Shown here one piece after another: positions 2,841 to 13,005 of a stretch of 27,798 nucleotides of DNA. The notes beneath the pieces are model-generated. The model did no database searches and was not told the DNA's origin. It worked only from the letters and a program-made list of their open reading frames with translations. Source of the stretch: a virus. The first letter of the stretch is position 1; each line of letters begins with the position of its first letter. A program made the translations under genes and the position numbers. The DNA lies in IMG/VR virus record IMGVR_UViG_3300024520_005213, positions 1 through 27,798 of that record, one strand, 5' to 3'.

Positions 2841-3428
2841 ATGAATAAATTCCTATTACCGATGTTGCTGTTTTTGCTTGCTGGCGCCGCCCATGCGCAA
2901 GAAATAGTTTTCACCGCTGAAACGACCACTGGTGACGCGGTTGTGACGCCAGTTCTTTCGTGGTCTACCAATCCGGCAGCCGATAGCTGTACGGCAAGCG
3001 GGGATTGGACTGGCGCGAAGTTGTCTGCGGGCAGCGAGACATTGCCTGATATTCAATCCTCTGCGACTTACATCCTTGACTGTTTTTGGACAACAGGGAT
3101 GGCAACGCTGACATGGACGCCACCGACGACGAACACTGATGGCACCACTCTGACTGATCTGACGAGTTACAAAATTTATCAGTTGGCCGGCGGTGAGGTT
3201 GTGAGCGAAACGCTTAACAGCGATGTCGGAACCGTCCCGCCGTTTGTTATCAATGATTTACCGGCCGGGGATCACTGTTGGGTTGTGGCGGCGATCAATT
3301 CCCGAGGCATTGAAGGGCCGCTGTCGAATGAATCGTGTAAAACGATCACGGCGGAGAGCAGCAGCAGGGGTGTGGCGATCACCGTCAATCCGGCGCCGTC
3401 AGGAATTGTTGATCTTGGCGTACTGTGA
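2841..3428 (+). CDS. Exported fibronectin-III/Ig-like protein
   Basis: The N terminus is a clear Sec signal peptide: MNK, a run of Leu/Phe/Met, then cleavage at AHA|QE after residue 19. The mature part has an Ig-like stretch with a possible disulfide pair (C in ADSCTASGDW, C in YILDCFW). A fibronectin-III-like domain follows at about residues 90-172 (LTWTPPTTNTDG, SYKIYQLAGG, GDHCWVVAAINSRG), with a second Cys pair. The last ~25 residues are a Ser-rich tail. The protein is probably periplasmic or surface-exposed in the infected cell, perhaps binding carbohydrate or protein. No enzyme motif is present. Ribosome binding is by GAGAGG upstream of ATG 2841. Signal peptides are uncommon in phage structural blocks. 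Confidence 0.8.
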   Translation: MNKFLLPMLLFLLAGAAHAQEIVFTAETTTGDAVVTPVLSWSTNPAADSCTASGDWTGAKLSAGSETLPDIQSSATYILDCFWTTGMATLTWTPPTTNTDGTTLTDLTSYKIYQLAGGEVVSETLNSDVGTVPPFVINDLPAGDHCWVVAAINSRGIEGPLSNESCKTITAESSSRGVAITVNPAPSGIVDLGVL

Positions 3429-9776: not shown

Positions 9777-10600
9777 CCCGTAAGCCCGTAGTGGCTACCC
9801 GCCGCGGCCGGACTGCCGTCGCTGAACCACCTCCATTTGTCGAGAGGCTGTACCAACTCGAAGTCGATCAGGGCAAGCGAAAAGACGAGAGCCTTTCGGT
9901 CGTTTGTTATTTCTGGAAAGAGCGAGGTTACAGTGAACCTCGAGGATTCGAGTCGTCACACGTCAATGCTTTGGCAAATGGTGTGGCCGCCAACCTGGCG
10001 CATCCACATCGATTTATCTGCATCACTGACGAGACTGAAGGCTTCTCGGAGAACGTTGAATTGATGCGGCTGCCAGAGGAAGCGCGCGAGGCGGCGAACG
10101 TTCCAACGGCTCAGGGCCACACGAGGTTTCCTTCCTGCTATCGTCGCCTGTGGACGTTCTCTGAGTCTGCCCGAGCGCTTGGCGATATGGTGCTGGTGCT
10201 GGATATCGACTGCTTTATCACTGGCTCCATCGATGCACTGTTTGATTTTCAACCGCTGGCTGATTTTGTCGGATGGAATCCAGTGCAGGCGTGGGGAAAA
10301 ACGAAGGTCGGTGGAGGAACATGGAGAATCAGGACTGGCACGAAAACGCGGATTTGGAGGCAGTTTTCGCAGGTGGAAGCGCTGAAAATCAAGAATCTTG
10401 GCTACAATGGATCAGATCAGGCTATTTTATCGTATAAACTAGCTGACCAACCTGTGTTTCCGAACGGATGGATACTTAACCGACAGGACATGCGGCGCCT
10501 GGGCGGTAAGGTTCCGGAAACAGCGAAAATTGTGCATTGCAACGGCCCGAAAGGCATGAAGGGGTTTTCGAGCATCAGAGACGTTCCATGGACGCGCTAG
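9773..10600 (+). CDS. GT-A glycosyltransferase-like protein with DxD
   Basis: After a basic, Pro-containing N-terminal tail (~40 residues), the protein has a GT8-like arrangement: LSVVCYFWKERGY, ICITDETEG, SCYRRLWTFSE, then VLVLDIDCFITGSIDALF with the metal-binding DID at 144-146, a Trp/Gly segment (WNPVQAWGKTKVGGGTWRIR), GSDQAILSYKL and IVHCNGPKGMKG near the end. The 'DxD ... DQ ... H.nGp' order is characteristic of retaining nucleotide-sugar transferases. It is the last gene of the cassette. ATG 9773 overlaps the previous stop (ATGA). The end overlaps the terminase start by 13 nt. Confidence 0.75.
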   Translation: MTRKPVVATRRGRTAVAEPPPFVERLYQLEVDQGKRKDESLSVVCYFWKERGYSEPRGFESSHVNALANGVAANLAHPHRFICITDETEGFSENVELMRLPEEAREAANVPTAQGHTRFPSCYRRLWTFSESARALGDMVLVLDIDCFITGSIDALFDFQPLADFVGWNPVQAWGKTKVGGGTWRIRTGTKTRIWRQFSQVEALKIKNLGYNGSDQAILSYKLADQPVFPNGWILNRQDMRRLGGKVPETAKIVHCNGPKGMKGFSSIRDVPWTR

Positions 10601-13005
10601 ACTCATTCAGCAACGCAGAACTGCTTGACGCGCTTTCCACGGTCACGGCAGAGAACGAACTGTTCGCCTGGTTCGATCCGGAATACCCGTACTGGTGGCA
10701 AAAGCAGTTTTTCGACGCAGGATCATTCGCAAAGCAGCGTTTAGTTATAGCGGCAAATGGATGCGTCAGTCCGTGGACGATTATTGAAACGGTTCCTCAA
10801 TCGCGCCGGATCGTAGATATTCTCGGTGAGACATCATTCGATGTGCGTTCGTGGGCCGGTGAATCCGAATGTGTTGCTCAAGGTCACGGCGTATTTTTGA
10901 AGAGCATCGAGCCAGCGTTTCGTTTTCATTTGGACAACGGCGAGTTCTTCGACTGCACCGATAAGCATCGGGTATTGACTGACGACGGGTGGCTTGCGGC
11001 CGGCCAGTTAGTTCGTGCTTCAAGTGGTCTCCGTTGGAAGCAAACAATTCAAGATTTTCAGGCCAATTGTGGCGTGGATGTTCATTCTTGTGATGGACAA
11101 CCTCGATTGGCGTCAGGTAGCGATGTAGTATCACTTCCACTAAAAGCCGATGCTCAAAAATCCTTCCTGTTTTATTTCGGGCCGATGGATGCAGAGGTGC
11201 GTATACCTCGATATAGCCATGCTTATCAAGCGCTCGCCCAGACTTCCATTGATGAGACTGCTCGCCAGATCGCGGACCTGTGCGAGCGGTTTGAAGATCC
11301 ATTCGCCTGCATCGCCTTTCTACACTCGTCCGATGTACACCAAGCATGTCGGCAATCCGTTGCTGAGTTAAGCCATTATGAATCAACTCAGCAATTACAG
11401 AATCATCCAACTTCTTTGGCGTCGTCTTTGGCCGAGAGGGGCGTATTTTGCGCCGATGAAGAAACGCCTGAAGGGAAGCAAAGGTTACGTCTATCTCCGA
11501 CGCAATATTTCGAATGGTGTGATGTTGGTCAAGCCTCGCTTGGATTAGAGCAACGTGAGTCTCACACGGAGATTTTCTACCCATCGACTCATCCTGTGTT
11601 GAAAGGAGACCGTAGAATTATATCTGTGGTCCCGCTCGGTTACCAGCCAATACTAGACTTTACAGTGGAAAAGACTGCATGTTATTGGTCTGGCGGCGCC
11701 ATCCATCACAACACAGGAAAATCCCAGACAGTTTGCGCTGAACTCGCCATGCACGTCACCGGCCGATACCCGCCATGGTGGAAAGGAGTCCGCTTTGATT
11801 ATGGTGGATGGGAGTGCTGGATAGGGTCGATCGACAACGACATGCAGAAGCGTGGGCCGCAGCGGGCGCTGTTGGGTCGCGAACTTGACCAACTGGGGAC
11901 CGGGTTAATTCCGAAGGACGCAATCGCCAAAGATCCCCAGTTAAGGCAGGCCGGCGTTAAGGGGGTTGTAGACACACTGGTAATCAACCATGCATCCGGC
12001 AAGCCGGTCACCATGAAGTTCCTGACGTTCGAACAGGGATGGAGAAAGTGGCAGTCCGGCGACCCAAAAATCATTCTCTGGGACGAAGAACCTGACGACT
12101 CCAACGTAGATCAAAAAGACATTCTCTCAGAAGTTCTTACTCGATTGGTGCGGAACAATGGAATTTTCATAGTCGGCTACACGCCGCTGTTGGGCGAAAC
12201 CGAACTGACCAGACACTTCATGCATTCCGAAGACGATCAGGTATGGCACATCAGCGCGACATGGGACGATGCGCCGCACATGGATGATGCCGCAACGGAA
12301 ATGATCAAGAAACAATACCCGGAGCATCAGCGCGAAGCGAGAACCAAGGGCATTCCGATGCTTGGTGAGGGCCGAATATTTCGTGTCGCTGAATCCGATT
12401 TGCTGGTGGACCCCTACGAGATACCGGATCATTGGGCCAGAATTTGTGGCATTGACCTTGGACTGGCGCATCCTGCGGCCTGCTCATGGCTGGCGTGGGA
12501 CCGGGATAGCGGTAAGACGGTTTTGTATGACTGCTGGCGGAAAAAAGGCGCGCTGACGAAGGAACATGCTGGCGTCATAAATGGTCGCGGCAGGTGGATA
12601 CCGGTCGCATGGCCGCATGATGGGGAGAAGCGAGACCCGAAAAGCGGCGCGCGATTCCACGATATTTATCGCGATGAATACAAAGTAAACATGCTGTCGA
12701 AGTCTGCCCGTTACAAAAGGGGAGTGGGCGGGGCACAGGCTCAGTGGCCAGTTATCGAGGACATTCGCAATGACATGGAAGCCAGCCAGTTTGAGGTTTT
12801 CCGTACCTGCAAATACTGGATTGATGAATATCGGAGCTACCACGTAAAGGACGGTAAAATAGTTTCGCTACGAGATGACACACTAAAAGCCAGTTTTTAC
12901 GCTAAGATGATGCAGCGATACTCAGTTTCGAAGCGAGAAGGTGACCGCATGATCAGCACGGTTCGGCAAATTCCAGCGCCAATCACTACCTCGGTGCGCC
13001 GATGA
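10588..13005 (+). CDS. terL: Terminase large subunit with an intein in the Walker A motif
   Basis: The packaging motor ATPase/nuclease. The 805-residue precursor minus a 317-residue intein (residues 59-375) leaves 488 residues, normal for TerL. Removing the intein joins IAANG to TGKSQT, rebuilding the P-loop AANGTGKS, followed by AMHVTGRYPPWWKG, a common TerL context. Walker B is IILWDEEPD (D499, E500, E501 in the precursor). The C-terminal RNase H-like nuclease starts at CGIDLGLAHPAA (Asp 623) and has a late acidic patch (SLRDDTLKASFYA). ATG 10588 starts the domain and overlaps the glycosyltransferase gene; an in-frame ATG at 10537 adds residues shadowing that gene. Without splicing the ATPase should be inactive. 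No small-terminase gene is evident nearby. Confidence 0.93.
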   Translation: MDALDSFSNAELLDALSTVTAENELFAWFDPEYPYWWQKQFFDAGSFAKQRLVIAANGCVSPWTIIETVPQSRRIVDILGETSFDVRSWAGESECVAQGHGVFLKSIEPAFRFHLDNGEFFDCTDKHRVLTDDGWLAAGQLVRASSGLRWKQTIQDFQANCGVDVHSCDGQPRLASGSDVVSLPLKADAQKSFLFYFGPMDAEVRIPRYSHAYQALAQTSIDETARQIADLCERFEDPFACIAFLHSSDVHQACRQSVAELSHYESTQQLQNHPTSLASSLAERGVFCADEETPEGKQRLRLSPTQYFEWCDVGQASLGLEQRESHTEIFYPSTHPVLKGDRRIISVVPLGYQPILDFTVEKTACYWSGGAIHHNTGKSQTVCAELAMHVTGRYPPWWKGVRFDYGGWECWIGSIDNDMQKRGPQRALLGRELDQLGTGLIPKDAIAKDPQLRQAGVKGVVDTLVINHASGKPVTMKFLTFEQGWRKWQSGDPKIILWDEEPDDSNVDQKDILSEVLTRLVRNNGIFIVGYTPLLGETELTRHFMHSEDDQVWHISATWDDAPHMDDAATEMIKKQYPEHQREARTKGIPMLGEGRIFRVAESDLLVDPYEIPDHWARICGIDLGLAHPAACSWLAWDRDSGKTVLYDCWRKKGALTKEHAGVINGRGRWIPVAWPHDGEKRDPKSGARFHDIYRDEYKVNMLSKSARYKRGVGGAQAQWPVIEDIRNDMEASQFEVFRTCKYWIDEYRSYHVKDGKIVSLRDDTLKASFYAKMMQRYSVSKREGDRMISTVRQIPAPITTSVRR
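10781..11584 (-). CDS. HTH-HNH homing endonuclease encoded antisense inside the intein
   Basis: 267 codons on the minus strand. Residues ~12-48 and ~58-100 look like two helix-turn-helix units (TIRNIASEIDVTFASLQAFL; LTQQRIADMLGVHRTSVERR). The linker QSHQWKSGRALDKHGYIEVY matches the 'W.gGr..d..GYv.vy.p.HP' lead-in of phage HNH_3 endonucleases. The nuclease core is at ~144-190: EHRLLVE, RYLTPIEVVHHKNEHPRHNW and PENLELFASNGDHLKHELTG, with His 164/165, Asn 173/177 and His 187 or 190 as likely active-site residues. The last ~70 residues are Arg-rich and antisense to the intein's N-terminal splicing domain; they may be readthrough to the first stop. The start has AGGA 7 nt upstream and a perfect TATAAT before it. 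It would cut intein-less terL alleles to drive homing. Confidence 0.88.
   Translation of the reverse strand: MGRKSPCETHVALIQARLDQHHTIRNIASEIDVTFASLQAFLHRRKIRPSRPKTTPKKLDDSVIAELIHNGLTQQRIADMLGVHRTSVERRCRRMDLQTARTGPRSGEQSHQWKSGRALDKHGYIEVYAPLHPSARNKTGRIFEHRLLVEVILHRYLTPIEVVHHKNEHPRHNWPENLELFASNGDHLKHELTGRPQATRRQSIPDAYRCSRRTRRCPNENETLARCSSKIRRDLEQHIRIHRPTNAHRMMSHREYLRSGAIEEPFQ
11585..11645 (-). promoter_or_regulatory. Candidate promoter and RBS of the antisense endonuclease
   Basis: On the minus strand a perfect -10 box TATAAT lies at 11622-11617. A weak -35-like TGGTAA (three of six matches to TTGACA) lies at 11645-11640, 17 bp away. The predicted start of transcription near 11610 would leave a leader of about 26 nt. 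AGGA at 11595-11592 is 7 nt before the ATG at 11584. All of this lies inside sense codons of the intein (around residues 275-295). The -10 sequence is seen directly; activity is inferred. Confidence 0.5.

Follow-up and report, generated by a model that had tools for sequence, protein, structure and literature searches.

A phage terL intein with an antisense HNH endonuclease gene and predicted expression signals in intein codons

Introduction

In phage T4, the promoters of the endonucleases I-TevI, II and III lie inside the intron and are middle or late, never early, and I-TevI is autorepressed (PMC2988022). In nuclear group I introns, the Didymium homing endonuclease genes (HEGs) of Dir.S956-2 and Dsq.L2066 run antisense and have an internal promoter (PMC9548176). 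Antisense homing genes in nuclear group I introns and endonuclease promoters in T4 introns are thus known already. Among inteins, the conventional large ones (LAGLIDADG, VMA or RecA type) are mobile, sit at a conserved ATPase motif and have a Hint domain split by an insert that encodes the endonuclease in frame. The "fractured genes" of Dassa et al. from 2009 are said to comprise split inteins with a free-standing endonuclease gene between the halves.

Here, we analysed a stretch of viral DNA of 27,798 nucleotides (IMG/VR record IMGVR_UViG_3300024520_005213, hereafter the window), in which the terminase large subunit gene terL contains an intein with an HNH endonuclease gene on the opposite strand. 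Like the three T4 introns, the element holds an endonuclease gene with its own, here predicted, promoter; in T4, however, the gene lies on the same strand of an RNA intron and uses middle or late promoters, whereas here it is antisense within an intein. With the Didymium genes it shares the antisense orientation and the internal, here predicted, promoter, but those elements are RNA introns in eukaryotic rDNA whose other strand need not code, while in the window both strands code and the putative promoter is written in intein codons. As in conventional large inteins, the insertion site is a conserved ATPase motif and an insert that codes for an endonuclease divides Hint, and comparison of alleles in a relative suggests that this intein is mobile too; in contrast to them, the endonuclease is a separate protein encoded on the opposite strand with its own predicted signals, and the in-frame insert is predicted to be disordered filler. 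The fractured genes likewise have a separately encoded endonuclease gene between intein halves, yet the window intein is one continuous open frame, as for cis-splicing, without stops across the endonuclease gene. Finally, the HNH motif is common to the window protein and phage HNH_3 homing endonucleases of the I-HmuI type (PDB 1u3e), from which it differs in its antisense position within an intein, its extra N-terminal helix-turn-helix (HTH) elements and a C-terminal domain that overlaps the Hint N-terminal half.

Results

The intein and the antisense HNH gene

The features of the locus are collected in Table 1. The extein of the window terL is ~38% identical to phage TerLs, and translation more likely begins at ATG 10588 than at TTG 10537.

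Table 1. Coordinates of the terL intein, the antisense HNH gene and the predicted minus-strand signals in the window.
Feature	Position	Strand	Evidence or remark
terL ORF (terminase large subunit) containing the intein	10537..13005	+	Terminase_6N 9e-8; PHROG terminase
Intein, 317 aa, in the Walker A P-loop	10762..11712	+	AANG^CVSP...GGAIHHN^TGKS
Hint N-terminal half, intein residues 1-85	10762..11016	+	pLDDT ~95
Intein "linker", residues 86-268	11017..11565	+	antisense of the HNH gene; predicted disordered; kept open
Hint C-terminal half, residues 278-317	11593..11712	+	predicted minus-strand promoter and ribosome site lie in its codons
HNH endonuclease gene, 267 aa (HTH, HNH and C-terminal helical domain)	11584..10781	minus	PHROG HNH endonuclease 1.5e-19
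HNH C-terminal domain, residues 212-267	10784..10951	minus	overlaps Hint N-terminal codons; pLDDT ~92
Weak -35-like TGGTAA	11645-11640	minus	17-nt spacer to the -10
-10 box TATAAT	11622-11617	minus	exact match; sense codons ATT ATA (Ile-Ile), Hint block F
Predicted 5' leader, ~26 nt	11610-11585	minus	inferred from the -10 position; start 7 nt past the -10
Shine-Dalgarno AGGA	11595-11592	minus	7 nt ahead of ATG 11584

By itself, the window intein sequence scores below library thresholds for Hint/intein profiles, and neither the whole sense intein nor its C-terminus returned anything usable as a direct search query. A profile of the intein family, in turn, matched PDB inteins with a best value of 1.6e-19 (DnaB inteins 1e-17 to 1e-19), and PF14890 (Intein_splicing) was found in 24 of 26 sense inteins of the family. 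C1, H69 (the block B His) and N317 are invariant across these 26 members, and the +1 residue is T, S or C. In the predicted structure, both Hint halves exceed a pLDDT of 90 and are joined by a disordered linker that corresponds to the antisense of the HNH core. On this sequence evidence, the terL insert is an intein with predicted splicing activity.

The endonuclease is not encoded in the Hint reading frame: the HNH gene is antisense, and the in-frame sense insert is disordered. PF13392 (HNH_3) matched 37 of 39 antisense family proteins, residues H145, H165, N173 and H187 are invariant in the HNH family, and the family profile matches PDB 1u3e with E=0.003. The predicted HNH model is confident, including the tail that overlaps Hint N; used as a Foldseek query, it returned helix-turn-helix pieces only, none at E<=0.001. 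By these sequence criteria, the minus-strand ORF is a genuine gene for an HTH-HNH endonuclease, its product a predicted nuclease. Segment 10784-10951 encodes the HNH C-terminal domain on one strand and the Hint N-terminal half on the other, and both are predicted to fold confidently; as modelled, this segment is a rare case of true double coding.

Occurrence in phages and bacteria

A profile scan of IMG/VR yielded 80 loci with the closest viral relatives of the window HNH, 79 of which have the HNH gene antisense within a terL intein; L078 is the sole locus without an antisense intein frame. The open frames of the 79 end as a typical intein C-terminus, HNYxAxGxxHHN^[TSC], in the terL P-loop, where two neighbouring insertion points are used, one before GK[ST] and one after GK. 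The antisense phase of HNH relative to the terL frame was identical in every locus measured, the intein C-end and the HNH start usually lay ~120 nt apart in the IMG/VR loci, and L002, the top relative of the initial scan, shares the window's layout. HNH genes antisense in a terL intein were also found in eight Pectobacterium phages, in Pseudoalteromonas phage PHS3 and in Enterobacter and E. coli prophages. Among bacterial genomes, the six best clear matches with an antisense frame (L087-L090, L092 and L108) take in the chromosome of an Enterobacter cloacae and the genome of an Acinetobacter, and the weaker matches are free-standing HNH genes; such free-standing homologues occur in many bacteria. 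Antisense-HNH terL inteins are thus, as judged by sequence, widespread in phages.

Several of these loci carry misleading annotations. The terL of PHS3 (L006, 1724-3850) is annotated as truncated because of the antisense HNH, and that of E. coli MEI003 as an N-terminally incomplete pseudogene, owing to the call of the antisense HNH; in Pectobacterium phages Taid and Ymer (L004/L005), the entire intein-containing terL is a "hypothetical protein" and the HNH has no annotation. PaP3-type phages were rejected as intein carriers, since their alignment at residues 360-391 is an overhang and their orf3 encodes an ordinary TerL of 482 aa.

In related E. coli prophages, as distinct from the window's own phage, one gene occurs in both an occupied and an empty form. 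MEI003 (L244, 1740-4027) has an occupied terL P-loop allele with a close copy of the element, and ET729 (L245, 1834-3138) has an intact empty site, YVAGFG^SGKTWVGCGG. In two further loci, L073 (2435-2935) and L082 (2980-3408), the HNH frame is broken and the intein frame is still open, as expected for decaying homing genes.

Constraint on both strands

The terL frame is free of stops across the HNH gene in 50 of 50 loci, against 7.0 stops expected when HNH codons are redrawn, while the other two antisense phases of the same loci contain 8-10 stops. In free-standing HNH relatives, the terL-equivalent frame was open in none of 21 (a mean of 8.5 stops). Substitution rates by codon position were obtained from 19 close pairs. 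In the extein, changes fall mostly at sense third positions (0.382). In the HNH core, the fastest position is the HNH wobble position (0.242) and the slowest is the sense third position (0.071), and in the C-terminal tail of the longer HNHs, which overlaps the Hint N-terminal half, all three positions are slow. These substitution and stop patterns indicate that both strands are under selection.

Minus-strand signals in the window

The first-pass annotation had described a TATAAT box, a weak -35 (TGGTAA), a leader of ~26 nt and an AGGA ahead of ATG 11584, and all of them were found on the minus strand exactly where it had placed them. The -35-like hexamer agrees with TTGACA at three of six bases and is the reverse complement of conserved Gly-Tyr-Gln codons in intein block LGYQPI, which dictate its sequence. 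A sigma70 consensus scan omits the TATAAT site because this -35 is too weak. The window contains five TATAAT hexamers against 5.45 expected by chance; all five (3481, 11617, 17359, 18003 and 20406) are on the minus strand. Nor is ATA a rare codon in the terL-intein gene, where it accounts for 11 of 43 Ile codons. When the intein amino acids were held fixed and the codons were redrawn from the gene's own usage, the window promoter reached p=0.34 and the ribosome site p=0.24. Judged alone, the window signals are no better than chance; the case rests on the relatives, where the signal is strong.

A predicted promoter and ribosome site across the family

Upstream of HNH, the top sigma70-like score lay above that of synonymous recodings by a mean z of 1.44 in a set of 52 non-redundant loci and of 1.43 (sem 0.15) in 72 loci, as scored with an approximate E. 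coli sigma70 matrix, which may not suit the actual hosts. The excess persisted after averaging over 17 clades (z=1.56, p=4e-6) or over seven (p=0.0013), and the best -10 lay 30-49 nt from the HNH ATG in 46 of the 72 loci. Within the same loci, z values of -0.53 to +0.52 were obtained for controls taken from the sense strand, from the HNH strand of the extein and from the interior of the HNH gene. In an identical slice, ordinary inteins, represented by 20 C-terminal regions from one bacterial phylum with a few doubtful members, scored 0.26 (sem 0.25) against 1.69 (sem 0.14) for antisense-HNH inteins (p=1.2e-5). About two thirds of the loci failed to reach p<0.05 when tested singly, some of them because the choice of the first ATG as start is probably wrong. 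Near-consensus -35 boxes (TTGACA/T) occur in relatives such as L006, L043, L065, L067 and L085, with TTGACA-17-GATAAT in PHS3 and TTGACA-18-TATATT in L065. Ribosome-site matches upstream of HNH averaged 3.79 bases against 2.63 under the recoding null (p=3e-6).

In the main group, which includes the window, the -10 coincides with a conserved Ile-Ile/Val/Leu codon pair of Hint block F, so that ATT-ATA reads TATAAT on the other strand, ATT-GTA reads TACAAT and ATT-CTA reads TAGAAT. At the second residue of this dipeptide, NTA codons were used in 29 of 48 cases, where 8.6 would be expected (z=8); none of 200,000 simulations gave more than 21, and the bias in other columns reached a z of 3 at most. 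The loci are related to one another; with clade averaging, the bias persisted at 12 or more clades (p=0.027 to 7e-5) and was not significant at six, the coarsest clustering (p=0.44). Divergence at fourfold sites fell from 0.471 for the extein and 0.34 for the remaining Hint C codons to 0.136 across the promoter zone, and was 0.200 for the leader. The promoter and the ribosome site thus appear, from codon statistics, to be kept by synonymous codon choice in the Hint C codons.

The prediction that the -10 would be conserved despite synonymous freedom therefore holds for the family, through the promoter excess, the NTA bias and the fourfold constraint. Among the four nearest relatives, L007 (TACAAT; 47% HNH identity to the window) and L010 (TAGAAT) have a good -10 in the same place, L009 has a shifted, extended -10, and L008 lacks one at this position but offers a different site farther upstream. 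The broader claim of a dedicated antisense promoter and ribosome site in intein codons gains support from an excess over recodings on the HNH strand only, and such signals would allow the endonuclease to be transcribed independently of terL. Taken together, the family excess, the codon bias, the fourfold constraint and the alleles make the predicted embedded promoter of the HNH gene well supported.

The window leader (11585-11610) was not hairpin-rich by folding analysis. Hairpins sequestering the ribosome site were not found as a general feature of the family (mean leader folding z=+0.26); among the loci folded, only L006 (PHS3, 2950-3020) had a strong predicted hairpin around the HNH start (-25.8 kcal/mol, z -5.4). 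No Rfam RNA was detected in the region. Around the putative -10 (TGTTACACT) of L090 (3225-3300) and L244 (3110-3180), there is an inverted repeat, CTGCAAC...GTTGCAG, which is conserved in both the Enterobacter and the E. coli copy and is a possible operator.

Discussion

We propose that the window carries a mobile terL intein with a homing HTH-HNH gene on the opposite strand, whose own promoter and ribosome site lie in Hint C codons, and we put the probability of this reading at about 80%. Sequence comparison supplies its architecture, phase, open frame, two-strand selection, promoter and ribosome-site enrichment, synonymous constraint and the empty-site allele of a relative. On the sense strand, the two Hint halves would splice the terminase precursor, and the long disordered linker that joins them would be the mere antisense of the HNH gene, kept without stops. 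The HNH gene would have a sigma70-type promoter to itself, represented in the window mainly by TATAAT, and a ribosome site for its translation, both signals ~120 nt from the intein C-end. Its product would cleave the P-loop of terL alleles that lack the intein, and the whole element would then be copied into them. What we infer in this explanation is that the gene is in fact transcribed, that the precursor splices, that the DNA is cut and the element homes, and when all this happens. Since T4 endonuclease promoters are middle or late, "early" expression of the HNH, which the first-pass annotation had suggested with terL being late, is not to be assumed.

Could the TATAAT and AGGA of the window be a product of chance, dictated by the Hint amino acids, with the HNH gene silent or transcribed by read-through? 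The window-level recoding tests, the chance frequency of TATAAT, its omission by the consensus scan, the Gly-Tyr-Gln codons that force TGGTAA and the common use of ATA would all fit. We nevertheless consider this unlikely, as the family excess over recodings is specific to strand and position and absent in controls and ordinary inteins, NTA bias and fourfold constraint meet at the -10, and L007 keeps TACAAT in the same column. Still harder to sustain is the notion that the antisense ORF, whether in decay or a spurious shadow of intein codons, yields no protein. Biased codon usage can yield long antisense ORFs, and L073 and L082 have a broken HNH frame in an intact intein frame; nonetheless, the HNH_3 matches with invariant H/N/H residues, the gathering of substitutions at HNH wobble sites, which marks the HNH frame as clearly the constrained one, the confident predicted fold and the free-standing homologues in many bacteria make this reading barely credible.

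Two further readings concern what the promoter is for. A transcript from it would necessarily be antisense to Hint-N and the 5' terL region, and the first-pass annotation had suggested that it could dampen terL; such damping may occur, being possible by geometry. That the promoter serves mainly to make an antisense RNA repressing terL early, with the endonuclease secondary, is quite improbable, because an excess of ribosome sites and strong constraint on the HNH coding sequence mark the protein as the selected product. Autorepression of the endonuclease promoter through an operator resembling the homing site, as in T4 I-TevI, has a precedent (PMC2988022), and both the HTH domains of the HNH and the CTGCAAC/GTTGCAG arms around the -10 in L090 would suit it. 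Promoter regions resembled their own homing sites no more than mismatched pairs did (12.65 vs 12.36, sem 0.25), and we rejected an operator of this I-TevI type; autorepression as a whole seems doubtful to us.

Returning to the mobile intein with its own antisense signals, we found no account, in the open-access literature, of an intein that houses a homing gene in antisense, nor of intein codons that hold the promoter of such a gene, and the arrangement may be new. With somewhat less confidence than for the window itself, we think it probable that these elements make up a large, undescribed class of mobile inteins in the terL P-loop, with splicing and homing on opposite strands, signals held by synonymous codons and, in some members, the window among them, an HNH C-terminal domain and a Hint N-terminal half that are both folded.

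If this is true, a mobile element overcomes a compact-genome problem: the opposite strands of ~1 kb encode a pair of folded proteins as well as a promoter, with synonymous codons as the store of the regulatory signal. The recurrent misannotation of such loci, with terL called truncated in PHS3 or a pseudogene in MEI003 and the endonuclease missed in Pectobacterium phages, would be explained, and the signature of an open antisense frame with an NTA-coded -10 could reveal other hidden antisense genes. Mobility and splicing could then each have their own time of onset during infection, and the way in which a selfish intein times its endonuclease apart from the host gene becomes testable.
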